In this document: positions 29,931 to 48,936 of the stretch, piece after piece
How positions within the stretch are numbered: the stretch's first letter is position 1
Layout of the letters: each line of letters begins with the position of its first letter
Source: Brachybacterium huguangmaarense
Lineage (GTDB): Bacteria; Actinomycetota; Actinomycetes; Actinomycetales; Dermabacteraceae
DNA: 64,000 bases
NCBI RefSeq assembly: GCF_025725725.1
Contig: NZ_CP107020.1
Span: 248,001 to 312,000 of the forward strand
Reading direction: 5' to 3'
The notes under the pieces: model-generated
What the model was told of the DNA's origin: nothing
What the model saw: the letters and a program-made list of their open reading frames with translations, nothing else
Databases searched by the model: none
Translations under genes and position numbers: made by a program

Positions 29931-30659
29931 GTGGCCGAGAGCTCGTCGATCGGTGCCCGGCTGCAGAGGTTCCTGACCGACCGCACCGCCTTCGCCGCGG
30001 TGCTGTTCACGGTCGTGCTCGCCTTCGTGCACCTGATGTCACTGAGCGCGTGGGACCCGCTGACCGCCAAGGCGATCCTCGACCACGTCGACGTCCCGGG
30101 GTTCCTCGTGAACCTCGCGGTCGTCTGCCTGCCCGAGCTCACGGCGGTCGCGCTGCTGTCCCTGCTGCTCGCGAGCACCGCCGACGGGCACGGCGAGCAG
30201 CCGGGGTTCAGCCGCACCCAGGGCATCGTGTTCGGCGCGGTCCTCGCCGTCGTCTACGTCGTGCTCGTGCCGCTGTCCACGGTCGCGCTGAGCGTCGTGG
30301 CCGGCCTCGTGGTCGTGGGCGTGGTCCTCGTGCGGCGTCGCCGGGGCGACCTGACGGGGCGCAGCGTCGCGGCGCTCGCCCTGCTGCTGTCGGCCGGGGC
30401 GACGCTCGTGGCCGCGGCGGTCGTCACGAGCCCCTGGCTGCCCTCGGAGACGATCACCTCCCACGAGGAGGACGCCGTCTACACCGCGTACGTGGTCGCG
30501 GAGGAGCGGCGCGAGTTCGTGCTGCTCCACGACCGCCCGCGCGTGGTCTCGATGGTCCAGATCGACGAGACCTCCCGGCAGCTGTGCACCCAGCCGAGCC
30601 CGTGGAGCCGGTCGGCCCTGCAGCTGCTCGTACCGCCGCGCTATCCGGCGTGCACGTGA
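29931..30659 (+). CDS. Multi-pass membrane protein of unknown function
   Basis: This 242-residue protein starts at GTG 29931, four bases after the ackA stop, so it is probably in the pta-ackA transcript. It has four hydrophobic segments (about 18-40, 57-80, 98-133 as one long or two short helices, 147-167), then an extracytoplasmic C-terminal domain of about 70 residues with EEDAVYTAYVVAEERREFVLL and a lone cysteine pair near the end. I do not recognise the family. Its 3' end overlaps the converging lacI gene by 19 bases. Confidence 0.68.
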   Translation: MAESSSIGARLQRFLTDRTAFAAVLFTVVLAFVHLMSLSAWDPLTAKAILDHVDVPGFLVNLAVVCLPELTAVALLSLLLASTADGHGEQPGFSRTQGIVFGAVLAVVYVVLVPLSTVALSVVAGLVVVGVVLVRRRRGDLTGRSVAALALLLSAGATLVAAAVVTSPWLPSETITSHEEDAVYTAYVVAEERREFVLLHDRPRVVSMVQIDETSRQLCTQPSPWSRSALQLLVPPRYPACT

Positions 30660-31684
30660 GGTGACGGCGCGGCCACCGAGTCGCGCACGACGACCGGCAT
30701 GGGGACCAGCTCGTCGGCGCGCGGACGGTCGCCGAGCAGCATCTCGACGCCGCGGCGCGCCATCTCCTCGTACGGCAGGTGCACCGTGGTGAGGCCCGGG
30801 CGCTGCAGGCTCGCGAGCACCTCGTTGTCGAACGACGCCACGGACATGTCCGCGGGGATGCGCAGCCCGCGCTCCGACAGCGCCTGGTAGACGCCGAACG
30901 CGACGCTGTCGTTGGCGGCGAGGATCGCGGTGACCTCGGGATGGGTGTCGATGAGGGCGTCGGTCCGCTCGAAGCCGTTCTCGGCGTCCCACGCCGAGGT
31001 CTCGACCAGCAGCTCCTCGACGCCCCGCTCCGCGAAGACCTCGTGGATCCCGGCGAAGCGATCGGGGATGGTGACCGAGTAGGTCGGGTCGTCCATGGCC
31101 GCCGCGAGCGGGCCGATCACGCCGACCCGGCGGTGGCCGGCGTCCAGGAGCAGCTCGGCGACGGCCCGTCCCGCGGCGTGCTCGTCGGGCAGCACCGAGG
31201 CGTGGCCGCTCGTGGTGCGCCCGTTGACGATCACGAGCGGCACCTCGACCCGGGAGGTGTCGGGGTCGATCAGGCGGGCGCTCATGAGGCCCAGCAGGAT
31301 GCCGTCGACGCGCCGGTCGACCATCTGCTCGATCGCCTCGTTGAGCTGGGCGGGGTCGCCGCCGGCCTCGGCCATCAGCACGGTGTGCTCATGGCCGCGG
31401 GCGGTGTCGAGGGTCCCGCGGATCATGTCCGAGGCGTGCCGCGTGAGGGTCACCTCGTCCGAGACGAAGCCGATCGTGCGGGTGGTCCCCAGGCGCAGGC
31501 TGCGGGCGGCGGGATTGGGGCGGTAGCCCATCTCCTCGGCCACGCTGCGCACGCGTCGGGCGGCCTCCTCCGAGAGTCGGGAGCCGGGCCGGTCGTTGAG
31601 GATCATGCTGACCGCGGCCTTGGACATGCCCGCCCGGTCCGCGACGTCCGCGAGCGTCGGAGCCCGACTCCTCCGCTTGCCCAT
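30641..31684 (-). CDS. LacI-family regulator of the adjacent GH32 gene
   Basis: The 347-residue protein has a LacI DNA-binding domain (PTLADVADRAGMSKAAVSMILNDRPGSRLSEEAARRV, hinge RPNPAARSLR) and a periplasmic-binding-protein-like sugar domain with ILAANDSVAFGVYQAL near 255. ATG 31684 has GAGGAG upstream. It is divergent from a GH32 glycosidase gene with palindromes in the shared intergenic region, so it likely represses GH32 and itself in response to a fructose-containing sugar; that ligand is inferred from the target. Confidence 0.9.
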   Translation of the reverse strand: MGKRRSRAPTLADVADRAGMSKAAVSMILNDRPGSRLSEEAARRVRSVAEEMGYRPNPAARSLRLGTTRTIGFVSDEVTLTRHASDMIRGTLDTARGHEHTVLMAEAGGDPAQLNEAIEQMVDRRVDGILLGLMSARLIDPDTSRVEVPLVIVNGRTTSGHASVLPDEHAAGRAVAELLLDAGHRRVGVIGPLAAAMDDPTYSVTIPDRFAGIHEVFAERGVEELLVETSAWDAENGFERTDALIDTHPEVTAILAANDSVAFGVYQALSERGLRIPADMSVASFDNEVLASLQRPGLTTVHLPYEEMARRGVEMLLGDRPRADELVPMPVVVRDSVAAPSPHVHAG

Positions 31685-31727
31685 CGCGTCTCCTCACGCC
31701 GTCCGACCGGACCACCCTATCGGTCGT

Positions 31728-31745
31728 TGCTGAATTGTTTCAGCA
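31728..31745. promoter_or_regulatory. Candidate LacI operator near lacI
   Basis: TGCTGAA-TTGT-TTCAGCA has perfect seven-base arms. It lies about 45 bases upstream of the lacI start and could serve autoregulation. Confidence 0.5.
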
Positions 31746-31751
31746 GACCTC

Positions 31752-31780
31752 TTGTCGGGGGTCGCGGCCGGGGTTAGCAT
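31752..31780 (+). promoter_or_regulatory. Promoter of the GH32 gene
   Basis: TTGTCG (31752-31757) and TAGCAT (31775-31780) are 17 bases apart. The predicted start of transcription falls at the edge of the downstream palindrome. Confidence 0.55.
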
Positions 31781-31786
31781 GAACGC

Positions 31787-31802
31787 GCTAAATGCATTTA
31801 GC
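31787..31802. promoter_or_regulatory. LacI-type operator at the GH32 transcription start
   Basis: GCTAAATGCATTTAGC is a perfect 16-base palindrome, AT-rich in a GC-rich genome, beginning six bases after the -10 box. Its position predicts steric repression of GH32. Confidence 0.72.
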
Positions 31803-31869
31803 ATCCAGGACCGAGGCTCGCCGCTCCGCGAGGGCCTGACCGCGGGCGCCGGGAAGTGACGTCCCCGGC

Positions 31870-33384
31870 ATGACCGCACCGACCGCCACGTCCGCCGGAG
31901 AGGATGGCATGCACTTCCGGACCCGCCGCAACTGGTTGAGCGACCCCAACGGGCTCGTCGTCCACCGCGGTCGCCACCACCTGTTCTTCCAGCACAACCC
32001 CGACGGGGTCGAGCACCGCGAGATGAGCTGGGGCCATGCCTCGAGCGCCGATCTCGTGCACTGGGAGGAGCATCCGGTGGCGATCCGGGCGACCCCGCAG
32101 ATCCAGATCTACTCCGGATCCGCCGTCGTCGACCACGCCAATGCGAGCGGGCTCGGGACCGCCGACTCTCCGGCGCTCGTGGCGGTCTTCACCGCCTCGG
32201 CCCGGGACCGGGCCCACCAGGCGCAGGCCCTCGCCTACAGCACCGCCGAGGGCCTGACCTGGCGCCTGTACGAGGGCAACCCCGTGCTCGACCGCGGCTC
32301 GAGCGACTTCCGCGACCCCAAGGTGTTCCGCTACGAGGGCCCCGCCGGCTCGTACTGGGTCATGGTCGCGGTCGAGGCGCACGAGCGCAGGGTCGTGCTC
32401 TACCGCTCCGACGACCTCCTGGCATGGAGCTACCTGTCCTCGTACGGCCCTCGCGGCGCCGTGGGCGGGGTCTGGGAGTGCCCCGACCTGTTCCCGCTCG
32501 CTGTCGACGGCGCGGCCGACGACGTGCGCTGGGTGCTGCTCATCAGCCTGTGCCCCGGCGGCATCGCGGGCGGCTCGGGCACGCAGTACGTGGTCGGCGA
32601 CTTCGACGGCGTGACCTTCACGCCCGACGATCCCCCGCCCGTGGGCGACCCGCGGCTCGCGCCCTCGCGCGAGCAGCTCGAGCGCCTCGACTGGCTCGAC
32701 CACGGCCCCGACTGCTACGCGGGCGTCACGTTCTGGGGTCTCGCGGACGCGGACCGCACGCTCATCGCCTGGATGAGCAAATGGGACTACGCGCGGGAGC
32801 TCCCCGTCTCCGAGGCGGCCCCCCAGCGCGGCCGCATGACGCTGCCGCGCCGTCTCGCGCTCACGCGGCACGCGGGCCGGCCCGTCCTGCGCCAGGAGGT
32901 CGCGGCGCCGCCCACGAGCCCCGTCGCACGCCATCGGGTGCGCGACCTCACGGCCCCCGGGACCGTCACGACGGACCTCCCGGCGAGCGCCAGGCTCGAC
33001 GTGCGTCTCGAGCTCGAGGCCGGCACGTCGTGCTCCCTCGTGCTCGGCGCCGACGGATCCGACGGGGCCGACGGGATCGTCCTGACCTACGACGCGGCGG
33101 CCTCGCGCGTGCGCATCGAGCGGCCGCTGCCCGCGCCGCCGGCCGCCGGCGGCGAGATCCCCGCCTCGTTCGCCGGGGCGTGGACGATGCCGCTGGACGG
33201 CGGCCCTGCCCAGAGCTGGACGCTGTGGCTCGACGACGGCACGCTCGAGCTGTTCGCCGACGACGGGACGCGTGTGCTGACGTGCCTGACCGGGCACGAG
33301 GCCGCGAGCTCGCTGCGGTGCGAGCCCGGCCCGGGCGCCGTCGTGTCCCTCGAGGCGGTCGTGAGCACCCTCGCCGAGCTCTGA
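31870..33384 (+). CDS. GH32 family fructosidase (sucrose/levan-type hydrolase)
   Basis: This 504-residue enzyme has the three GH32 active-site motifs: RNWLSDPNG near 20 (nucleophile aspartate), SSDFRDPKVF near 145 (transition-state aspartate) and WECPDLFPL near 203 (acid/base glutamate). A five-blade propeller is followed by a C-terminal beta-sandwich (about 350-500). There is no signal peptide, so it acts on imported sucrose or short fructo-oligosaccharides. ATG 31870 gives a short leader; an internal ATG at 31909 is the alternative. It is under the divergent LacI. Confidence 0.92.
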   Translation: MTAPTATSAGEDGMHFRTRRNWLSDPNGLVVHRGRHHLFFQHNPDGVEHREMSWGHASSADLVHWEEHPVAIRATPQIQIYSGSAVVDHANASGLGTADSPALVAVFTASARDRAHQAQALAYSTAEGLTWRLYEGNPVLDRGSSDFRDPKVFRYEGPAGSYWVMVAVEAHERRVVLYRSDDLLAWSYLSSYGPRGAVGGVWECPDLFPLAVDGAADDVRWVLLISLCPGGIAGGSGTQYVVGDFDGVTFTPDDPPPVGDPRLAPSREQLERLDWLDHGPDCYAGVTFWGLADADRTLIAWMSKWDYARELPVSEAAPQRGRMTLPRRLALTRHAGRPVLRQEVAAPPTSPVARHRVRDLTAPGTVTTDLPASARLDVRLELEAGTSCSLVLGADGSDGADGIVLTYDAAASRVRIERPLPAPPAAGGEIPASFAGAWTMPLDGGPAQSWTLWLDDGTLELFADDGTRVLTCLTGHEAASSLRCEPGPGAVVSLEAVVSTLAEL

Positions 33385-37619: not shown

Positions 37620-39955
37620 TCAGGCCGAGACCCACTCCCGCAGGGCCCGCGCGGTCAGGGTGTCGACGCCGCCGTCCTCGACCATCTCGCGCGGGGATCC
37701 CGTGAACACGATGCGGCCGCCGTCGTGCCCGGCACCCGGCCCGACGTCGATCAGATGATCGGCCTGGGTCATGACCGCGAGGGAGTGCTCGACGACGATC
37801 ACGGTCGCGCCGCCGTCGACGAGGGTGTGCAGCATCGCCACGAGGGTGTCGATGTCCTGCAGATGCAGACCGGTGGTCGGCTCGTCGAGCACGTACACGT
37901 CGGCTCCCGTGCCCATGCGCGCGGCGAGCTTGAGCCGCTGGCGCTCGCCGCCCGAGAGCGTCGTGAGCGGCTGGCCGAGCCGCAGGTAGCCGAGCCCGAC
38001 GTCCTGCAGGCGCGAGAGGATCCGCGCCTCCTTGGCGCCCGTGAAGCGCTCGGCCGCCTCGGCGACCGACAGGTCGAGCACGTCGGCGATCGAGAGGCCG
38101 TCGAGCGTGTAGCCGAGCACGGTGGCCTGGTAGCGGCGGCCCCCGCACACCTCGCACGGGATCGCGGTCCCGGCCATCAGGCCGAGATCGGTGTAGACGA
38201 CGCCGGCGCCCTTGCACTCGGGGCACGCGCCCTCGGAGTTGAAGGAGAACAGGGCGGGCTTGACCCCGTTCGCCTTGGCGAAGGCGCTGCGGATCGGCTC
38301 CAGCAGCCCGGTGTACGTCGCGGGGTTGGATCGGCGGGAGCCGGAGATCGGGCCCTGGTCGACGAGGCACACGCCGTCGCGCCCGGCGAGGGAGCCCTCG
38401 ATCAGCGTGGACTTGCCGCTCCCGGCCACCCCCGTCACGACGGTGAGCACGCCGCGGGGGATGTCGACGTCGACGTCGCGCAGGTTGTGCGCCCGGGCGC
38501 CGCGGATCTCGATCGCCGGCCCGGACGGCGTGCGCAGGGTCTCGCGCAGGGTCAGGCGGTGCTCGAGCGAGCGCGCGGTCGCGGTGTCGGTCGCGCGCAG
38601 CCCCTCGAGGTCGCCGACGTACTGGATGGTGCCGCCGTCCTCCCCCGCGCCGGGGCCGAGGTCGACGAGCTGGTCGGCGATCGCCATCACCTCGGCCTTG
38701 TGCTCGACCACGAGCACGGTGTTGCCCTTGTCGCGCAACTGCAGCAGGAGGTCGTTCATGCGTGAGATGTCATGGGGGTGCAGGCCCGCGGTGGGCTCGT
38801 CGAAGACGTACGTGACGTCGGTCAGGGCGCTGCCGAGGTGGCGCACCATCTTGATCCGCTGGGCCTCGCCGCCCGAGAGGGTGTCGGACTCGCGGTCGAG
38901 CGAGAGGTAGCCGAGCCCGATGTCGATGATCGCGCGGAGCATGCCGGCGAGGTTGGCCAGGAGCGGGGCGACGCTCGGCTCGTCGAGGGCCTCGACCCAC
39001 GCGAGCAGGTCGGTGACCTGCAGGGCCGTGAGCTCCCAGATCCTCCTGCCGGCGACGGTGGCCTCGCGGGGTCCCGCGGCCAGGCGCGTGCCGTGGCAGT
39101 CGGGGCACGGCCCGAAGGTCGCGACCCGGGCGGCGAACTCCTGGATGTGCTTCTGCTTGGGCGGCCGGGCGGGGTCGAGGTAGGAGCGGCGCACCCGGCT
39201 CGCGAGCCCCTGGTAGGTGTAGTTGATGCCCGAGAAGACGATCTTGGTGGGCTCCTGCTCGTACAGCCACTGCCATTCGGCGTCGCTGTAGTCGCCCACC
39301 CGCTTGTCGGGATCGAGCTTGCCGGTCTCGGCGTAGGCGCGCCACATCCACGAGCCGACGGGGTGGCCCGGCAGCAGGATCGCGCCCCCCCGGAGCGACT
39401 TCGTCCGATCGACGATGACGTCGACGTCGAGGGCCGAGGAGCGCCCGGTGCCCTCGCACGTCGAGCACATGCCGCCGATGACCTCGAAGGACTTCTTCTC
39501 GGCCCGGCCGTCGGCGGTACGCAGCACGCCCGCGCCGCTCGCGGAGGCGACCGTGAAGGCGAAGGCCTGCGAGCTGCCGATGTGCGGCGTCGAGCAGCGC
39601 GAGAACAGCGTGCGCAGGAGGGAGTAGGCGTCGGTCGCGGTCCCCACCGTCGAGCGCCCGCTCGCGCCCATCGGGTTCTGGTCGACGACGATCGCCGTGG
39701 TCAGGTTCGCGAGCTCGTCGACCTCGGGGCGCGGGGCCGAGGGCATGAAGGTCTGCACGAAGGTCGAGTAGGTCTCGTTGATGAGGCGCTGGGACTCGGC
39801 CGCGACGGTGCCGAAGACGAGCGAGGACTTGCCCGAGCCGGAGACGCCCGTGACCACGGTCAGGCGCCGCTTGGGCAGGTCGACGTCGACCCCGCGGAGG
39901 TTGTGGACGCGCGCGCCGCGGACCCGGATGACGTCGTGGGCGCCGTCGGCGGTCA

Positions 39956-39956
<1 letters not shown>
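37620..39956 (-). CDS. Short UvrA-like ABC ATPase (UvrA2/DrrC type)
   Basis: This 778-residue protein has two UvrA ATPase modules: Walker A GVSGSGKSS near 36 and GVAGSGKST near 487, signatures LSGGEAQR and LSGGERQR, and zinc-binding CxxC pairs (CSTCEGTG, CPDCHGTR, CPECKGAG, CEVCGGRR). Canonical UvrA is about 950 residues; the region between the first Walker A module and CSTCEGTG is too short to hold the UvrB-binding domain. This is the UvrA2 class, which includes drug-resistance proteins. It probably binds DNA or intercalators without UvrB. Its ATG shares one base with the guaB stop (TGATG), implying co-translation. Confidence 0.88.
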
Positions 39957-41467
<1,511 letters not shown>

Positions 41468-41484
41468 GCCGCCGCGGGACAGCG

Positions 41485-41532
41485 GACGGGGCGCCGGTGC
41501 CGTGGCCCTGGCCACGGCACCGGCGCCCCGTC
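41485..41532. terminator. Long perfect inverted repeat after the GH172 operon
   Basis: Two perfect 23-base arms (GACGGGGCGCCGGTGCCGTGGCC in the first half) are separated by only CT. It follows the GH172 stop by 14 bases and precedes guaB transcription in the opposite sense, so it should insulate the two same-strand operons. Confidence 0.8.
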
Positions 41533-41545
41533 GGGCGCGGCCGCG

Positions 41546-42640
41546 TCAGCGCGGACGGCGCAGCGTCGCCTCGGGCAGGTCGGGCAGCGGACGGGTGCGT
41601 CCGGCCTGGTACCAGTACGCGACCGTGGCGATGTCGTCCTGGCGCTCGAAGTGCCCGTTCCTCTCGCCGATCTGCTGCAGGGTCACCCGCAGCCCGTCAT
41701 GGAAGTAGATCGGGTCCGGGAGATGGAAGCGGTACATGCCATGACACGGGGGCATGTCGGTCGCGAAGTCCGACATCTTGGAGGAGTCCTTGACCAGGCG
41801 CTGGGAGTAGCCCACGAACGGGGCCGAGAACGTCTCGGCGACGGGCGCGGGCTCGGCGCCCAGGTGGTCCTGGAACGCCCAGGCCCCGCCCACGTAGTCC
41901 TCGAGGCCGGTGCCGCAGATGGTCGGGAAGTCGGTGTCGCCGTCGAGGAAGAACTTCATCTCCCCCTCGCCCCACCAGAACCGCTCGAGCGCCGTGAGCT
42001 GGATGAAGGAGCCGACGTAGCTCCCGCGGCTGCCGGCGGGCAGGTCGAGCAGGGTGTGGTCCGTCCCCAGCGGGGCCCGTCCGTCGCACCGCCGCCACAG
42101 GGCGTGGAAGCGGCCCTGGTCCTCGGGATGCTGGTCGCCGAGCGTGTAGTCGATCTGGTAGAAGACCCCGCTGACGTGCTGGGGATGCTCGCTGACCAGC
42201 TCGATCCGTGCGCCCGTGGCGAAGGGCATCGGGAAGAAGCAGTTGAACCCGCCCTTGGGGGCCACGGTGATCGGGAGGGACTGCACCCGGGCGGGCTCGC
42301 CGAAGCCGGAGCAGAAGAAGTCGCCGAGCGGGACCTCGACCGAGGGCGAGGTCTCCCCGTCCCAGAACATGCGCAGCACCAGGTTGCGGTAGACGTACGG
42401 GGCGTTCTCCGTGTGCGGGGTGATGGTCATCCAGATGTGCCGGATGGTGCCCGAGCCCTCGATGTCGGCGAGGACGATGGTCTCCCCCGCCTCGATCTCG
42501 GTGCACGGAGCGCCCTTGCGGGTGGGCCCGAGATTGCTGGCCGCCTGGCCACCGACCCCGCGCTCGCCGCGGGGGTTCTCCGCCGTGATGGCCCGGGACT
42601 CCAGGGAGGAGGCGCGGGTGAAGCTCATGCCGTCGAACAT
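41546..42640 (-). CDS. GH172 family (DUF2961) glycoside hydrolase
   Basis: This 364-residue protein matches DUF2961, now GH172. Acidic residues cluster in FWWGEGEMKFFLDGD near 221-234 and in CGTGLEDYVGGAW near 242-254, the family's conserved active-site stretches. PLGDFFCSGFG near 104 and GFNCFFPMPF near 131 are also typical. Characterised GH172 enzymes act on alpha-D-fructofuranosides, difructose anhydride or alpha-D-arabinofuranosides. No signal peptide is present, so it should act on sugars imported by the three upstream transporter genes. AAAGGA precedes ATG 42640. Confidence 0.87.
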   Translation of the reverse strand: MFDGMSFTRASSLESRAITAENPRGERGVGGQAASNLGPTRKGAPCTEIEAGETIVLADIEGSGTIRHIWMTITPHTENAPYVYRNLVLRMFWDGETSPSVEVPLGDFFCSGFGEPARVQSLPITVAPKGGFNCFFPMPFATGARIELVSEHPQHVSGVFYQIDYTLGDQHPEDQGRFHALWRRCDGRAPLGTDHTLLDLPAGSRGSYVGSFIQLTALERFWWGEGEMKFFLDGDTDFPTICGTGLEDYVGGAWAFQDHLGAEPAPVAETFSAPFVGYSQRLVKDSSKMSDFATDMPPCHGMYRFHLPDPIYFHDGLRVTLQQIGERNGHFERQDDIATVAYWYQAGRTRPLPDLPEATLRRPR

Positions 42641-42729
42641 CGACGATCCTTTCTCGTGGGGGGGGTGTTGCACTTCGGTCTCGGTGGTGCCGGCGGGAGG
42701 GCGCCCGAGCCGCCGGCACCGCTCGGGCT

Positions 42730-43620
42730 CTACTTGACCGCCCCCGCCGTCACGCCCTTGGCCAAGGTCCTCTGGAAGATGAGGAAGAAGAGCAGGGTGG
42801 GGATGAGGGACATCATGGAGCCCGCGATGAGCTGGTCGATCGGCGTCGCGTTCTGCCCCTTGAGGGTCATGATCGCGATCGGCACGGTCTGGTTCGTCGG
42901 ATCCGACAGCATGACCAGCGGGATCAGCAGCTCGTTCCAGGTCCAGATGAAGAAGAAGACGAGCAGCACGGACATCGTCGGACGCATGATCGGCACCACG
43001 ACGGACAGGAAGATCCTGAACTTGCCGGCGCCGTCGATCTGCGCGGCCTCCAGCAGCTCCCGCGGGAAGGTGCCGAGGACGCTCGAGAGCAGATACGTCC
43101 CGAACGCCGCCTGGATGACCGAGAAGATGATGACCACGGCGGCGATGGTGTTCGTCAGCCCCAGCGCGTCCGCTCCGTAGAACAGCGGATAGATGAGAGC
43201 CTCCTGCGGGATCATCGTAGCGAACAGGAACATGCCCGTGAAGAACGCGTTCCCCTTGATCCGGCCGATGCCCAGGGCGTACGCGGTGAGCATCGCGATG
43301 GCCACCCCGAGGACGGCCACCAGGCCGGAGCTGATGATCGAGTTCAGGAGCGCCCGCGGGTAGTTGACGGCATCGCTGTAGGTGAGCCACGAGTCGAACG
43401 AGATGTGCTCGGGCCAGGACAGCGCGCCGTTGGTCGCGTAGTCCGTCGGGTCCTTCACGGAGTTGATCGCGAGCAGGAGCAGCGGCGAGACGAAGACGAT
43501 CGCCACCAGCACCGCCAGGATCAGGAGGACCAGGTCGCGCGCGCTGCGGCGCGGACGGGTCCGGGGAACGACGGGGGTGGCTCCCCCGGGACCGGCGAGG
43601 CCCAGGTCGTCGATGGTCAT
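42730..43620 (-). CDS. Carbohydrate ABC transporter permease (MalG type)
   Basis: This 296-residue inner-membrane protein has six helices and the family loop EAAQIDGAGKFRIFLSVVVPIMRP near 190-215, which docks on the ATPase. The N-terminal 25 residues are hydrophilic. The ATG overlaps the stop of the upstream permease (ATGA), so the two are co-translated and probably form a heterodimeric channel. No ATPase is encoded in this cluster. Confidence 0.93.
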   Translation of the reverse strand: MTIDDLGLAGPGGATPVVPRTRPRRSARDLVLLILAVLVAIVFVSPLLLLAINSVKDPTDYATNGALSWPEHISFDSWLTYSDAVNYPRALLNSIISSGLVAVLGVAIAMLTAYALGIGRIKGNAFFTGMFLFATMIPQEALIYPLFYGADALGLTNTIAAVVIIFSVIQAAFGTYLLSSVLGTFPRELLEAAQIDGAGKFRIFLSVVVPIMRPTMSVLLVFFFIWTWNELLIPLVMLSDPTNQTVPIAIMTLKGQNATPIDQLIAGSMMSLIPTLLFFLIFQRTLAKGVTAGAVK

Positions 43621-44594
43621 GCCACGCCTCCGCTCCGGCGCGCGGATCTCCGCTGCCACCACATCATGAATACGGTCACGATCAGGATCACCACGGACAT
43701 GACGGTCGCGATCGCGGCGCCGTAGCCCACCTTCGACACCTCGAAGAAGTTGCGGTACGAGTAGTAGGACGGCACGTAGGTCGAGTTCTCCGGGCCGCCG
43801 GAGGTGAGGATCCAGACGGGGCCGAAGACCTTGAGCGCCGCCACCGTCGCGGTCAGGACCACGACGAACACCTCGGGCCTGATCTGCGGGATGGTGATCG
43901 CCCGGAAGCGCCGGAACCACCCTGCTCCGTCGATCTCGGCGGCCTCGTACAGCTCGGGGTCGACCCGCTGGAGCGCGGCCATGAAGATGACCACGGGGTA
44001 GCCGATCTGGATCCAGATCAGCACCAGCACGATCGAGTAGATCGCGATCGACGGGTCTCCCAGCCAGTCCGGGGTGTTCTCGATCCCGACCGTGGAGAGC
44101 ACGGAGTTGAGGGCACCGGTGTTGGCGTCGAGGATCCAGGCCCAGACCACGCCCGCGACGGCGATGGGCAGGATCTGGGGGAGATAGAAGGTCGCCCGCA
44201 GGAAGCTCGCGGCCCGCGCACCGAACTTCTTCCCGATGTAGTCGAACAGGAAGGCCGACAGGAAGAGCCCGATGATCGTCGGCACGATCACCATGCCGAG
44301 GATCATGAACAGCGAGTTCTGGAAGGACTTCCAGAACAGTTCGTCGCTGAGCAGACGGGCGTAGTTGTCCAGGCCCGCCCATCTCATGGGAGCGCGCCCG
44401 CCCCTCCAGGAGAAGGCGCTGATGTAGACGTTCGCGACGAAGGGCGCGGCGACGACGGCGAGGAAGCCGATCGCCATGGGGAGCATGTACAGCCAATACG
44501 AGCCCTCTGCGCCTCGTTTCCTGGCGGAGCGGCGCTTCTCAGCGGCCGTCGGCACCGACACACCTCCCGGTGGTCGGACAGAGGATGTGGTCAT
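43617..44594 (-). CDS. Carbohydrate ABC transporter permease (MalF type)
   Basis: This 325-residue protein has six helices after a basic cytoplasmic N-terminus (AAEKRRSARKRGAEGSYW). The ATPase-docking loop is EAAEIDGAGWFRRFRAITIPQIRP near 215-240. It lies between the binding-protein gene and the MalG-type permease, the usual order for sugar importers of the CUT1 group. Confidence 0.93.
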   Translation of the reverse strand: MTTSSVRPPGGVSVPTAAEKRRSARKRGAEGSYWLYMLPMAIGFLAVVAAPFVANVYISAFSWRGGRAPMRWAGLDNYARLLSDELFWKSFQNSLFMILGMVIVPTIIGLFLSAFLFDYIGKKFGARAASFLRATFYLPQILPIAVAGVVWAWILDANTGALNSVLSTVGIENTPDWLGDPSIAIYSIVLVLIWIQIGYPVVIFMAALQRVDPELYEAAEIDGAGWFRRFRAITIPQIRPEVFVVVLTATVAALKVFGPVWILTSGGPENSTYVPSYYSYRNFFEVSKVGYGAAIATVMSVVILIVTVFMMWWQRRSARRSGGVA

Positions 44595-44632
44595 GATGCG
44601 ACTCCAGATTCGTGGGAAGGACAGGATGGGGA

Positions 44633-44664
44633 CCGGGCGCGGCGTTCACCGTCACCGCGCCCGG
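44633..44664 (-). terminator. Stem-loop between the binding-protein and permease genes
   Basis: CCGGGCGCGG (44633-44642) pairs with CCGCGCCCGG (44655-44664) around a 12-base loop. Lying in the 80-base gap after the binding-protein stop, it may raise binding-protein expression relative to the permeases by attenuation or mRNA protection. Confidence 0.6.
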
Positions 44665-44674
44665 GAGACGCCGG

Positions 44675-46003
44675 TCAGCCGCCCAGCACCGTCTCCTTGC
44701 CGTCGTCGTAGAAGGTCTGCATGTCGGCCAGGAAGTCCTCCGCCGACGTGGTGCCGTTGGCGATCCCCTGCATGCCCGCCTGGATCGTCGGGATGAACCC
44801 GGGCACCGGATAGTCGGCGTAGTAGGACATCTTGTCCTCCTTCAGGGAGTCGAACGTCTCCGTGAAGGCACGCAGCTTCTCGTCCTCGATCACCGAGGGG
44901 TCCCCGGCCAGCGGCAGGCCGCCGAGCTTTCCGATCTCGTTCTGGACCTCCTCGCTGAGGGTGATGTCGATCCACTCGTAGGCGAGGTCGGGGTTCGGGG
45001 CGTCCGCCGGGACCGCCCAGAGGTGGCCGGACGATCCCATGATGTTCTGCGCCTCGGGGAGGATGAAGGAGTCCCACGCGAAGTCGGCCTGGTCGGCGAT
45101 CGTCGAGTAGGCCCCGGAGTTGGTCAGGAGCATCGGGAACTTCTTGCCGATGAACGCCACCTGCGCCTGGTCCGAGTTCACGCCGGCGATCTTGCTGCCC
45201 AGGTAGCCGGCGCCGACCCACTGCGCGAACAGGTCCGTGCCCCGCTTCCAGGGATCCGCCGAGAAGTCCACGGAGCCCCGCAGGAACATGTAGTCGTCCA
45301 TCTGCTCCCGGCTGCCGAACGCCGAGACGAGCGAGTACCAGGTCCACATCGCGCCCCAGCCGCCGTTGGTGTTGGCGCTGCTGGACAACGGGGCCTGCCC
45401 CTTGCCGATGAAGACGTCCATGATCTCCTGGAAGGCCGCCAGGGAGTCCGGCGGCCCCTGGATGCCCGCCTCGGCGAACATGTCCGCGTTGTAGTAGACC
45501 TGCACGTACTCGCCGATGTTCGGGACGCCGAACCATGCACCGGATCCCGCGTTCCCCTCAGGGGTGTACTGCGCCAGCGCGGCCATGGTCCCGACGACCT
45601 TCTTGTCCCAACCCTTGGAGGTCACCTGCTCGGAGAGGTCGATGAGCAGACCCTGTGCCGACAGCTGGCCCGCGTCCGCGTTGCCCTTGTTGACCTCGAC
45701 GACATCAGGGACGTCCCGGCCCGAGAGGATGATCTTGGCGTTCTTTTGCATGTTGTCGAAGCTGGTCTGGACCAGCTTGACGTCCAGGTCGGGGTGCTTC
45801 CCCTTGAAGATCTCGAGAGCCTTCTCCCAGCCCTTGTACTGAGCCGAGGCCTTCGACTCGTACTGCTGGATCGTGAAGGTCGTGGAGTCGCCGCCTCCCC
45901 CTCCGCACGCCGAGAGGGTGGGGGCCAGGACACCGCCGAGGGCTGCGGCGGACGCACCGGTCAGCAGTCGGCGGCGCGAAAGACCGTGGGTCACGTTGGA
46001 CAT
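44675..46003 (-). CDS. Sugar-binding lipoprotein of an ABC importer
   Basis: This 442-residue extracellular solute-binding protein has a twin-arginine-type signal (SRRRLLTGASAAALGG) ending in a lipobox (LSAC), so it is exported folded and lipid-anchored. The body has the family 1 pattern: EIFKGKHPDLDVKLVQTSFD near 66, VPDVVEVNKGNADAGQLSAQGLLIDL near 97 and VPADAPNPDLAYEWIDITLS near 330. ATG 46003 has GGAG seven bases upstream. It leads the GH172 operon. Confidence 0.92.
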   Translation of the reverse strand: MSNVTHGLSRRRLLTGASAAALGGVLAPTLSACGGGGGDSTTFTIQQYESKASAQYKGWEKALEIFKGKHPDLDVKLVQTSFDNMQKNAKIILSGRDVPDVVEVNKGNADAGQLSAQGLLIDLSEQVTSKGWDKKVVGTMAALAQYTPEGNAGSGAWFGVPNIGEYVQVYYNADMFAEAGIQGPPDSLAAFQEIMDVFIGKGQAPLSSSANTNGGWGAMWTWYSLVSAFGSREQMDDYMFLRGSVDFSADPWKRGTDLFAQWVGAGYLGSKIAGVNSDQAQVAFIGKKFPMLLTNSGAYSTIADQADFAWDSFILPEAQNIMGSSGHLWAVPADAPNPDLAYEWIDITLSEEVQNEIGKLGGLPLAGDPSVIEDEKLRAFTETFDSLKEDKMSYYADYPVPGFIPTIQAGMQGIANGTTSAEDFLADMQTFYDDGKETVLGG

Positions 46004-46230
46004 CGTTGTCTCCTTCGAGATGACGGGAGATGCGGCGGCAGGGAGGTCGCGCCGCATGGGGACGGTCGAGGTGGAGGGACGATCCGTGCGGCCTGCGGAC
46101 AGCATGGCTGCGGACCTGGGCGATCCGATGCCGCCGCACGGGCGTCGTGGGGGCGAGGAGGCCCGTGGTTGCGCGGACTCCTCGTCGAACTTCGCGGAGC
46201 AGCCCGTCGACCATGGCGGACCATCTGCGC

Positions 46231-46265
46231 GGTAACGTTATCTTTCGTGGTGCGGTAACGCTACC
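46231..46265. promoter_or_regulatory. Tandem LacI-type operators of the GH172 operon
   Basis: GGTAACGTTATC (46231-46242) and GGTAACGCTACC (46254-46265) are two near-palindromes with a central CG, typical of LacI-family sites, with centres 23 bases apart. They lie about 230 bases upstream of the binding-protein ATG and about 200 before the divergent lacI. The remaining 46004-46411 region has no supported gene. Confidence 0.75.
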
Positions 46266-46411
46266 ACATGGCTCCCGTCTGTGAACGGTCCGCCCGGGGC
46301 GGCGGGAGCGCGACGCGTCCACGGCGCCATACTGGGCTCCAGTCCCGCTCCGACGTCGCTGCGCCGGATCATCGGGACCGACGACAGCACGAGCTCTGCG
46401 GAAGGAGCGAC

Positions 46412-46465
46412 ATGGACCGGAACGGCCGGCGGTGCTCGACGAGGTCCCCGGAGGCGGCGACGTGA
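46412..46465 (+). CDS. Possible 17-residue leader peptide before lacI
   Basis: ATG 46412 follows a strong GAAGGAG at five bases. The frame encodes MDRNGRRCSTRSPEAAT and stops at TGA 46463-46465, which overlaps the lacI GTG (46462) as GTGA. The layout predicts translational coupling of lacI to this short frame. No similarity is recognised, and it could be fortuitous. Confidence 0.4.
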   Translation: MDRNGRRCSTRSPEAAT

Positions 46466-47535
46466 GCACGTCCTCGGGCCGTTCTCGCGGGCATGGCCAT
46501 CGACCGACCATCAAGGACGTCGCCGCGGCCGCGGGGGTCAGTCCGATGACCGCGTCCCGCGTGGTCAACGGCGCGGGCAACGTCGAGCCGGGTCGTCGCC
46601 GTGCGGTGGAGCAGGCGATCATCGATCTCGGGTACCGCCGCAACCCGGCCGCCCACGCGCTTCGCAGCCACGGCGCCCCGTCCTGGATAATCGGCTTCAT
46701 CGTCGACGACATCAAGGACTCCTTCTTCTCGCAGCTCGCGCGATCGGTCGAGGACGCCCTGGCGGAACGGGGGTCGATGCTCCTCGTCGCGAGCAGCGAC
46801 GCACGTGCGGACCGGGCGGAGGAGCTGGTCCGCGATCTGGTCGCCCACAACGTCGATGCCCTGATCATCGCGCCGCCGCCCGGGGACCAGAGCTACCTCT
46901 CCCCGACGGTGACGCTCGGTCGACCCGTCCTCTGCGTGGACCGTCCTCCCGCCTCCGCCGGTGTGCCGGCGATCGTGTCGGACAACCGGGGCGGCGCCCG
47001 CGCCGCGATCGACCACCTGGTCGCCCGAGGGCATCGGGACATCGCGTACATCGGCGACGACCTTGGCTACACGATGCGCCATCGCCTCGACGGCTACCGG
47101 GAGGCGCTGCAGGCCCACGGTCTCGCCAAACGGCCGGAGCTCGTCCGCATGGACGCCTACACGGCGTCGTCCGTCCCCGCGATCGTGAGCGAGCTGCTGA
47201 CCCTCGACGAACCGCCCACCGCGCTGTTCACCGCCCGCAATGTGACCTCGCTCGGTGCCTTGGTCGGTCTCCATCAGCTGGGACGGCAGCGGGAGATCGC
47301 ACAGATCGGCTTCGACGACCTGGACCTGGGCACGGTCGTCGATCCCGCCTTGAGCGTCGTGGCTCAGCGCCTCGACGACATCGGACGACAGATCGTCGAG
47401 AATTTGGTGAGCCGACTGCAGGGGCATCCGACGGCCGAGACCGTCACGACCGTCCCCGTCGACCTCGTCCGACGTGGCAGCTCGGAGATCCCCGGCCCCC
47501 GAAGGAGCGGGACGGTCGCGAGGGCGCGCTGCTGA
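46462..47535 (+). CDS. LacI-family regulator of the GH172 transporter operon
   Basis: The 357-residue protein has a LacI helix-turn-helix (RPTIKDVAAAAGVSPMTASRVVNG near 24), hinge RRNPAAHALRSHG and a sugar-binding domain with ALFTARNVTSLGALVGLHQL near 255 and IGFDDLDLG. GTG 46462 is chosen over GTG 46432 because GGAGG lies about seven bases before it. It faces away from the transporter operon across tandem palindromes, so it is the likely local repressor; its inducer should be the operon's imported sugar. Confidence 0.9.
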   Translation: MSTSSGRSRGHGHRPTIKDVAAAAGVSPMTASRVVNGAGNVEPGRRRAVEQAIIDLGYRRNPAAHALRSHGAPSWIIGFIVDDIKDSFFSQLARSVEDALAERGSMLLVASSDARADRAEELVRDLVAHNVDALIIAPPPGDQSYLSPTVTLGRPVLCVDRPPASAGVPAIVSDNRGGARAAIDHLVARGHRDIAYIGDDLGYTMRHRLDGYREALQAHGLAKRPELVRMDAYTASSVPAIVSELLTLDEPPTALFTARNVTSLGALVGLHQLGRQREIAQIGFDDLDLGTVVDPALSVVAQRLDDIGRQIVENLVSRLQGHPTAETVTTVPVDLVRRGSSEIPGPRRSGTVARARC

Positions 47536-47628
47536 AGGACGTCGACATCCAGCTCACCGGGCCCCGCGGAGTGGTCGGCGACCAGTGGAGCGACAGTTCT
47601 CAACGGCCGCACTCGGCAGGTGCCGCCC

Positions 47629-48936
47629 TCAGTGCGGGTGCGCGACGCGGCGCCAGCTGGGCGAGGTCGCGAGGTGGGCGAGCGCGAGCCCGAAGCCGGC
47701 GGCGAGGATCACCTGCACCGCCTCCTGGAGCAGCATGAGGGAGCCCGTGACGTCGCCCGTATTCATGAGCGAGAACGCCGTGTAGAGGGTGAAGCCGGGG
47801 ATCATGATGACGACGGCGGGCACCGAGATGCTCGTGCGCGGGATGTGCCAGATGCGTGCGGCCGTGTAGGCGAGCACGCCCACCAGGGTGGTCGCGGCGA
47901 GCGTCGCGAGCTGGGGCGGGACCTCGCCGGTCGTCATCACGAAGCGCAGGGTGTTGGCCACGAGCGAGACCAGGGCGGCGCCCAGCGCGATCCGCCACGG
48001 CGAGTTGAAGATGACCGCGAAGCCGAGCACGCCCACGAAGGTCGCGAGCGCGCGCAGCGGCAGCTCGGCGGCGAGCGGCAGGGTCAGCAGGTTGGTGGAG
48101 TCCGGGCCCATCCCCACGGCGATGCCGACGGCCCACACGCTCGCGGCGGCCGCGAGGATGATCATCATCGAGTAGGTCAGGCGCGCGACCCCGGCGCTGA
48201 AGTCGGACCGCACGATGTCCAGGATCCCGGTGATGAGCGGGAAGCCGGGCACGAGGAAGAGCACCGCGGCCAGATAGCCGCCGCGGTGCCCGGGCTCGAT
48301 CACCCCGAGCAGGGTCGGCACCCCCACCGCGAGCGCGTACACGCCGCTCGTGAGGGCCGCGGCGATCACCGTGACGAGCAGGTGGTTCCAGTGCCGCCGT
48401 TGCATCGTCCGGCGCACGGCCTGGCCCGCGATCGCGGCGATCAGCACCGCGAGCATCTCGATGGGACCGCCGCCGTTGAGGAAGGAGAACGCCGCGCACG
48501 CGAGGCCCGCGGCGAGCGCGTTGACGAGAGCCCCGTACAGCGGCGGCCGGGCCGCGATGCGCGCGAGCTGCTCGAAGATCTCGGCGGCGCTCACGCGCGC
48601 GGGCAGCTGCTCGACCATGCGGTGGATGCGGGCGAGGTGATCCACGTCCACGCCCACGTGGTCCGGCTGGGTGATCCGAGTGCGATAGCGGCCGCCGAGG
48701 GTCGCGGTCGCCGTGATGTCCGTGAACGTGACGATCGAGCTGAACGAGTCCAGGCCGAGGGCGCGCGCGGTGAGCGCCATCGCGGCCTTGACCCGGTAGG
48801 AGGCCATGCCGCCCGACAGCAGGGCGCTGCCGACCGCCGCGGCCGCCTCGGAGCGCACCGTCAGCGAGTCGACGGCGCCGAGGGGGCTCGTGGTGGTGGG
48901 GAGCGGGGCCGGTCGCGGCTGCGCATCGGGGTCCAT
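47629..48936 (-). CDS. ThrE-family threonine/serine exporter
   Basis: This 435-residue protein combines both ThrE halves in one chain. The N-terminal domain (about 25-150) has LSGGMASYRVKAAMALTARALGLDS and VDVDHLARIHRMV. About ten helices then follow, including FLVPGFPLITGILDIVRSDF near 228 and VPAVVIMIPGFTLYTAFSLMN near 376. The family exports threonine and serine with proton motive force. A TAGCCT box precedes ATG 48936. A 93-base gap separates it from the converging lacI. Confidence 0.9.
   Translation of the reverse strand: MDPDAQPRPAPLPTTTSPLGAVDSLTVRSEAAAAVGSALLSGGMASYRVKAAMALTARALGLDSFSSIVTFTDITATATLGGRYRTRITQPDHVGVDVDHLARIHRMVEQLPARVSAAEIFEQLARIAARPPLYGALVNALAAGLACAAFSFLNGGGPIEMLAVLIAAIAGQAVRRTMQRRHWNHLLVTVIAAALTSGVYALAVGVPTLLGVIEPGHRGGYLAAVLFLVPGFPLITGILDIVRSDFSAGVARLTYSMMIILAAAASVWAVGIAVGMGPDSTNLLTLPLAAELPLRALATFVGVLGFAVIFNSPWRIALGAALVSLVANTLRFVMTTGEVPPQLATLAATTLVGVLAYTAARIWHIPRTSISVPAVVIMIPGFTLYTAFSLMNTGDVTGSLMLLQEAVQVILAAGFGLALAHLATSPSWRRVAHPH

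Follow-up and report, generated by a model that had tools for sequence, protein, structure and literature searches.

We begin with the window, the whole 64,000-nucleotide stretch of Brachybacterium huguangmaarense DNA that was analysed, and with a cassette at 41546-47535 that is built around an enzyme of glycoside hydrolase family 172 (GH172, DUF2961). On the minus strand lie a solute-binding lipoprotein of the SBP_bac_1/8 type (44675-46003), CUT1-type permease 1, GlcT/UgpA/MalF-like (43617-44594), CUT1-type permease 2, GlcU/UgpE/MalG-like (42730-43620), and the GH172 enzyme itself (41546-42640; ATG start, 364 residues). A LacI-family repressor gene (46432-47535, plus strand) diverges from this operon. 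The assignments come from open reading frame (ORF) and start calls together with domain searches, in which Pfam returns DUF2961 at 280 bits, BPD_transp_1 in both permeases, SBP_bac_1/8, and LacI with Peripla_BP. All five frames are intact, the permease genes overlap by 4 bp, and each of the four operon genes has a ribosome-binding-site-like sequence upstream. The binding protein has a hydrophobic stretch and, by eye in its translation, an RR...LSAC signal; the first 50 residues of the GH172 enzyme contain no hydrophobic stretch. An earlier note on this DNA had described a minus-strand lipoprotein, two CUT1 permeases and a signal-less GH172 enzyme facing lacI, and the ORF and domain calls agree with it throughout. 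A scan of 41300-47700 gives no match to a sigma-70-type promoter, and terminator-like sites number 3 against 1.4 expected. The cassette is real, intact and conserved, and its architecture is ordinary.

We consider the enzyme in detail. Its DUF2961 match covers positions 1-235 of the 235 in the profile (cut-off 27 bits), and among solved structures ExoMA1 matches best (8ic8, E 2e-76), followed by BACUNI_00161, DgGH172c and alphaFFase1. Measured against partial references, the identities are 44.7% to ExoMA1, 32.3% to BACUNI_00161, 32.0% to DgGH172c and 33.3% to alphaFFase1, the last spanning 330 aligned positions. An AlphaFold2 model (mean predicted local distance difference test score 85.7) has the double jelly roll, with 8ic8 as the top fold match (template modelling score 0.85). 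In the alignment, the -1 site residues listed in the excerpts of the alphaFFase1 paper used here fall on W222, E225, E247, D248 and W254, and the predicted catalytic pair is Glu225/Glu247. With the profile match, the ExoMA1 hit and these residues, the family named in the earlier note is confirmed. Among the window-like rows of the alignment (n=83, of which 35 were checked by tree), E225, E247 and D248 are invariant in 83/83. It is the only DUF2961 gene found by whole-genome search in the host (3.26 Mb, 99.99% complete), and 22 of the 38 Brachybacterium genomes have at least one.

One position in the pocket bears on which sugar fits. According to the passages of the ExoMA1 paper drawn on here, Gly299 of alphaFFase1 admits the 1-hydroxymethyl group of fructose and Asn253 of ExoMA1 blocks it. 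The corresponding residue in the window enzyme is Ala255, which is small, but not Gly. Across the 83 window-like rows this position is A in 51, S in 23, C in 7 and G in 2, and never Asn; the 53 actinobacterial rows among them have A 51 and G 2, and 32 other Brachybacterium rows have N 21, A 7, D 2 and Y 2.

The relatives considered here are the best 80 of 392 confirmed candidate stretches from a genome-contig scan with a 4-sequence alignment. They are 50-61% identical and come from Microbacterium, Curtobacterium, Kribbella, Paractinoplanes, Microlunatus, Streptomyces, Paenibacillus, Lachnospiraceae and others; neither Nocardia nor Mycobacterium occurs among the titles of these best 80. In a midpoint-rooted tree of 57 of 123 GH172 sequences, a branch with support 100/99 divides the ExoMA1 group from the 35 window-like rows. 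These rows group at 88/77, and within them the actinobacterial part, which includes the window enzyme, at 100/98; alphaFFase1 and two Bacteroidota enzymes make up the third group. The window enzyme, which has a long end branch, thus lies outside the ExoMA1 group. The order of the three groups depends on the root, and an initial placement of the window clade as sister of ExoMA1 is dropped. In a smaller tree with a distant outgroup, alphaFFase1 and the Bacteroidota enzymes are joined by the window enzyme and by three Brachybacterium relatives (95/95, long branches flagged). A Cohnella locus (L109, 9836-12219) carries tandem GH172 genes, one of the window group with Cys and one of the ExoMA1 group with Asn. 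The ExoMA1 type is thus matched neither in placement nor at Asn253, and the identity of 33.3% falls short of the alphaFFase1 subgroup, for which we take above about 47%, the range of the homologues that its authors picked in the part of their paper used here. Because the enzyme does not pass tests for either characterised subgroup, it is assigned to GH172 at family level only. We found no assay of this branch in the open-licence literature, and a report elsewhere is possible.

The region between the divergent genes contains two tandem near-palindromes with GGTAAC, GGTAACGTTATC (46231-46242) and GGTAACGCTACC (46254-46265), which differ from GGTAACGTTACC at one position each and which we predict to be operators from the pattern match and from relatives. 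They lie 228-262 bp upstream of the lipoprotein start and 167 bp upstream of the LacI start. In 100 shuffles of the window the pattern has a mean of 0.00 matches per shuffle, and in the whole host genome these two are the only sites within one mismatch of GGTAACGTTACC (a reversed control pattern occurs in one place). Loci from Jiangella (L067) and a Micrococcales metagenome-assembled genome (L078) have GGTCACGTTACC and GGTAGCGTTACC between a divergent LacI gene and a binding-protein gene, and a Streptomyces locus (L076), whose importer is below the ortholog thresholds, has GGTAACGTTACC in the same setting. The true LacI starts in these three loci are our own placement, because the ORFs as called cover the sites; their LacI proteins rank high among the matches to the window LacI. 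Further loci (2.3 Mb with duplicates) hold no such operator except the window's own copies, and a regulon beyond the cassette, sought genome-wide by the operator pattern, was not found. The sites that had been noticed between operon and lacI are therefore unique in the genome, and like sites occur in three other actinobacterial records. The repressor has helix-turn-helix and sugar-binding domains, and its conserved palindromic predicted operator adjoins its gene, but no NCBIfam cut-off is reached from which a sugar could be taken. From this arrangement, the LacI protein would repress the cassette through the two sites.

The operon has the lipoprotein and two permeases of an importer without an ATPase gene, as the earlier note had observed in calling for a shared ATPase, and an MsmX-like candidate is indeed present elsewhere in the genome. 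The host encodes two OB_MalK proteins. One (in L148) has MsmX (6yir) as its nearest match in the Protein Data Bank and no match to the window's permeases or binding protein in the surrounding 14 kb; next to the second protein there are permease matches and an ORF that resembles a binding protein. MsmX serves several importers, and the MsmX-like ATPase is a candidate partner of this one. An attempt to name the sugar from the binding protein failed, its best solved match being an arabino-oligosaccharide binder at E 5.5e-10 only.

The cassette occupies the junction between guaB, encoding inosine monophosphate dehydrogenase (IMPDH), and thrE. Strong ThrE matches exist in 10 of the 38 genomes, the window's included. 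The IMPDH-ThrE gap is 74-160 bp in five relatives (G007, G017, G032, G033, G035) and 6176 bp here, of which the cassette makes up 5990 bp; in G022 the distance is about 68 kb. The guanine-plus-cytosine content is 65-71% inside the cassette, against 71-73% toward guaB and 72-78% toward thrE. The filled junction fits insertion of the whole cassette, which would have arrived by horizontal transfer; loss in the relatives instead is possible. In G002, G006 and G016 the junction is 2.0-2.5 kb wide, so that other DNA may have entered there and the junction may be an insertion hot spot.

The next question is "which genes accompany the enzyme in its relatives?" Neighbours were sought by tblastn around GH172 in 81 relatives after deduplication, made up of 80 named loci plus L043 with the window excluded, within 10 kb on each side, several loci being shorter. 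Orthologs of the binding protein and both permeases occur in 37/81, colinear with GH172 in 37/37, and a LacI-like gene occurs in 36 of these 37. A GH32-like gene lies near GH172 in 25 of the 81 and a PfkB kinase in 19; 14 have both and 30 have at least one of them, and DUF4185 (GH183) is near GH172 in 0/81. The 30 other Brachybacterium GH172 loci, a control of a single genus with some short loci, have GH32 in 0, PfkB in 0, either in 0 and DUF4185 in 11, giving Fisher p values of 1.8e-4 for GH32, 1.6e-3 for PfkB and 1.2e-7 for DUF4185, with the caution that loci are not independent. The queries were drawn from counted loci (GH32 from L045=L102, L072, L101, L117 and L120; PfkB from L045 and L096), and the matches of these source loci are by construction. 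Pfam confirms GH32 in L045, L072, L101 and L117, as well as another gene of L120, and PfkB in L045 and L096; 5 of the 25 nearest GH32 matches are below 100 bits. In L083, L101, L105 and L117 the GH32-like gene overlaps GH172 by a few bases, and in G020 GH32 and permeases are close to a window-like operon (L043, L132). As a rough estimate from 77 GH32 matches in the 38 genomes of the genus, GH32 is expected in about 1 per hundred 20-kb stretches; DUF4185 is present in 17 of the 38. The L096 kinase has a fructokinase as its nearest solved protein. These GH32-like and fructokinase-like neighbours point to fructosides.

Combining this information, we lean on balance toward a cassette that imports, and a GH172 enzyme that cleaves, an alpha-D-fructofuranoside, e.g. 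a difructose dianhydride. The earlier note had a cytoplasmic GH172 with its importer take up an unusual furanoside and left the sugar open; that setup stands, and comparison narrows the sugar toward alpha-D-fructofuranoside over alpha-D-arabinofuranoside. A shared MsmX/MsiK-type ATPase would power uptake, through the lipoprotein and the pair of CUT1 permeases, of a small alpha-D-fructofuranosyl oligosaccharide, e.g. difructose anhydride (DFA) I, DFA III, or a fructoside of related kind from caramel or inulin. Once in the cytoplasm, the sugar would meet GH172, which as a retaining exo-furanosidase (acid/base Glu225, nucleophile Glu247) would open the alpha bond. The remaining beta-fructoside might be split by GH32 enzymes encoded elsewhere, and a fructokinase could pass the fructose into glycolysis. 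LacI, on two GGTAACGTTACC-like sites, would silence the divergent genes until the sugar or a product is present. Of the four GH32 matches in the host, one is in the window (31870-33384, plus strand; 8 kb from the cassette and outside it), two are in L140 and one is in L141; the host also has a kinase with 46% identity to the fructokinase-like kinase of L096.

The arrangement of LacI, importer and GH172 is already known from Bifidobacterium dentium, where, in the available part of the paper, the BBDE_2040 (alphaFFase1) operon holds LacI, GH32, DUF2961 and an ABC (ATP-binding cassette) transporter, and its authors propose import of a DFA-type sugar and intracellular cleavage. Shared with that system are the LacI gene, the ABC importer, the signal-less GH172, the Trp/Glu/Glu/Asp/Trp residues of the -1 site and, though with Ala in place of Gly, a small residue after the second Trp; unlike it, the window enzyme is only 33% identical with its calcium ligands replaced, and no GH32 lies within the cassette. 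In the DFA III pathway of Blautia and Arthrobacter, as far as the excerpts consulted go, an importer, GH32, a sugar kinase in some strains and a cyclic difructose recur, but GH91, not GH172, opens the anhydride. DgGH172c of Dysgonomonas gadei and BACUNI_00161 of B. uniformis share the DUF2961 double jelly roll and the catalytic Glu pair, yet at 32% identity and with Cys at the Ala255 position, and BACUNI_00161 is predicted to be exported whereas the window enzyme has no signal.

A number of points weigh against the fructoside. The enzyme is nearer in identity to ExoMA1 than to alphaFFase1. The cassette itself has neither GH32 nor a kinase, 51 of the 81 loci have neither GH32 nor PfkB within reach, and a whole-genome pattern search finds no operator near the host's other GH32 genes. 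The AlphaFold2 model is uncertain at residues 255-260, so the Ala255 argument rests on the alignment. Seven Brachybacterium paralogues (L020, L022, L026, L027, L029, L031, L049) also have Ala there, and six of them have a DUF4185 match no more than 5 kb away, so Ala alone is no proof of fructoside use. (In L049, from G011, the profile matches the GH172 copy in two separate pieces, and this copy may be damaged.) Cys is found at the position in 7 window-like rows, and the alphaFFase1 paper, in the portion used, suspects a clash of Cys with fructose. The calcium ligands Asn31, Asp33 and Asn272 of alphaFFase1 are Gly43, Pro45 and Glu227 here; the alphaFFase1 paper reports no inhibition of alphaFFase1 by ethylenediaminetetraacetic acid, so the calcium site may not matter for activity. 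Lastly, the tree leaves out NocGH172, MycGH172, DgGH172a and DgGH172b, all D-arabinose-active by the excerpts of their source, any of which may belong to the window clade, and for this reason we rate the fructoside a little lower and D-arabinan a little higher than at first, the fructoside staying ahead.

D-arabinan fragments are the main rival substrate: the cassette would import alpha-D-arabinofuranose oligosaccharides that other organisms free from the arabinan of mycobacteria or corynebacteria, with GH172 as an ExoMA1-like intracellular exo-alpha-D-arabinofuranosidase. ExoMA1 is the nearest solved relative by sequence and fold, and in the partial text of its paper it is likewise signal-less and near a putative importer, in a Microbacterium arabinogalactanolyticum D-arabinan locus with GH183 and GH116; judged by analogy, the cassette would work like both this and the B. 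dentium system. Sources seen in part also have alphaFFase1 cleaving both fructo- and arabinofuranosides and D-arabinofuranosides as the substrate of most GH172 enzymes assayed so far, and most of the Ala paralogues lie near DUF4185 genes. On the other side, DUF4185 is near none of the 81 relatives, Asn253 is not conserved, and the neighbours in relatives include GH32-like and fructokinase-like genes. The window cassette also differs from the ExoMA1 system in having its own LacI and predicted operator. Searches of the host genome found no GH183, GH116 or isomerase PF02952, the last a weak negative as the source passages do not name the isomerase of the Microbacterium locus. D-arabinan use, the first idea from the ExoMA1 match, lost ground after the family searches and neighbour counts, and we now consider it improbable while giving it a real chance.

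That the enzyme acts on another furanoside, e.g. an alpha-fructosylated glucoside or polyol, with neither published class being natural, would agree with the position of its group in the tree, separate from all four GH172 references, and with the group's spread over Actinomycetota, Bacillota and Spirochaetota, where the neighbours differ, but the -1 residues W, E, E, D and W match both published types and we hold it to be unlikely. A decayed or silent cassette, or a loss of enzyme activity, is very improbable: the long end branch and missing promoter match favour it, against intact frames, ribosome-binding-site-like sequences, and kept catalytic residues and operator.

Returning to the alpha-fructoside, a broader proposal is tentative, and we would sooner expect it to fail than to hold: the window-like rows may form a third GH172 specificity. 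They would be alpha-fructoside hydrolases, widespread in Actinomycetota and gut Bacillota and often paired with an importer, that open cyclic difructose anhydrides, perhaps DFA III, for which GH91 is otherwise the enzyme. By identity they would be closest to the arabinofuranosidase ExoMA1, yet their pocket would accept fructose, and they would have travelled between genomes in a self-contained LacI-importer-enzyme cassette. The interest lies in a GH172 branch that comes with a dedicated importer and a conserved predicted operator and whose neighbours in relatives suggest fructosides; a first function for it would extend to the 80 relatives, the best of 392 candidate stretches. Alpha-fructofuranosides and difructose anhydrides occur in caramelised foods. 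To our knowledge, few enzymes are known for them. As a caution, the best match alone should not label such genes D-arabinofuranosidases.

We turn our attention to other features of the window and its relatives. Literature on Brachybacterium and fructan in open-licence sources yielded nothing useful. In the window, the GH32 gene faces a second LacI-family gene (30641-31684, minus strand) in a separate beta-fructoside unit (30641-33384) 8 kb off. A second fructoside locus, with two GH32 genes, LacI and permeases, lies at 6919-14102 of L140 (host contig 1, near 1.157-1.164 Mb). Beside guaB, at about 37620-39970 on the minus strand, the translation read by eye suggests a UvrA-like ABC protein, for which no search was made. 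In G020, the distant DUF2961 proteins of L047 (8814-9803) and L048 (9140-10129) are without the WWGE motif and have Tyr aligned to the acid/base Glu; they perhaps have a different function.

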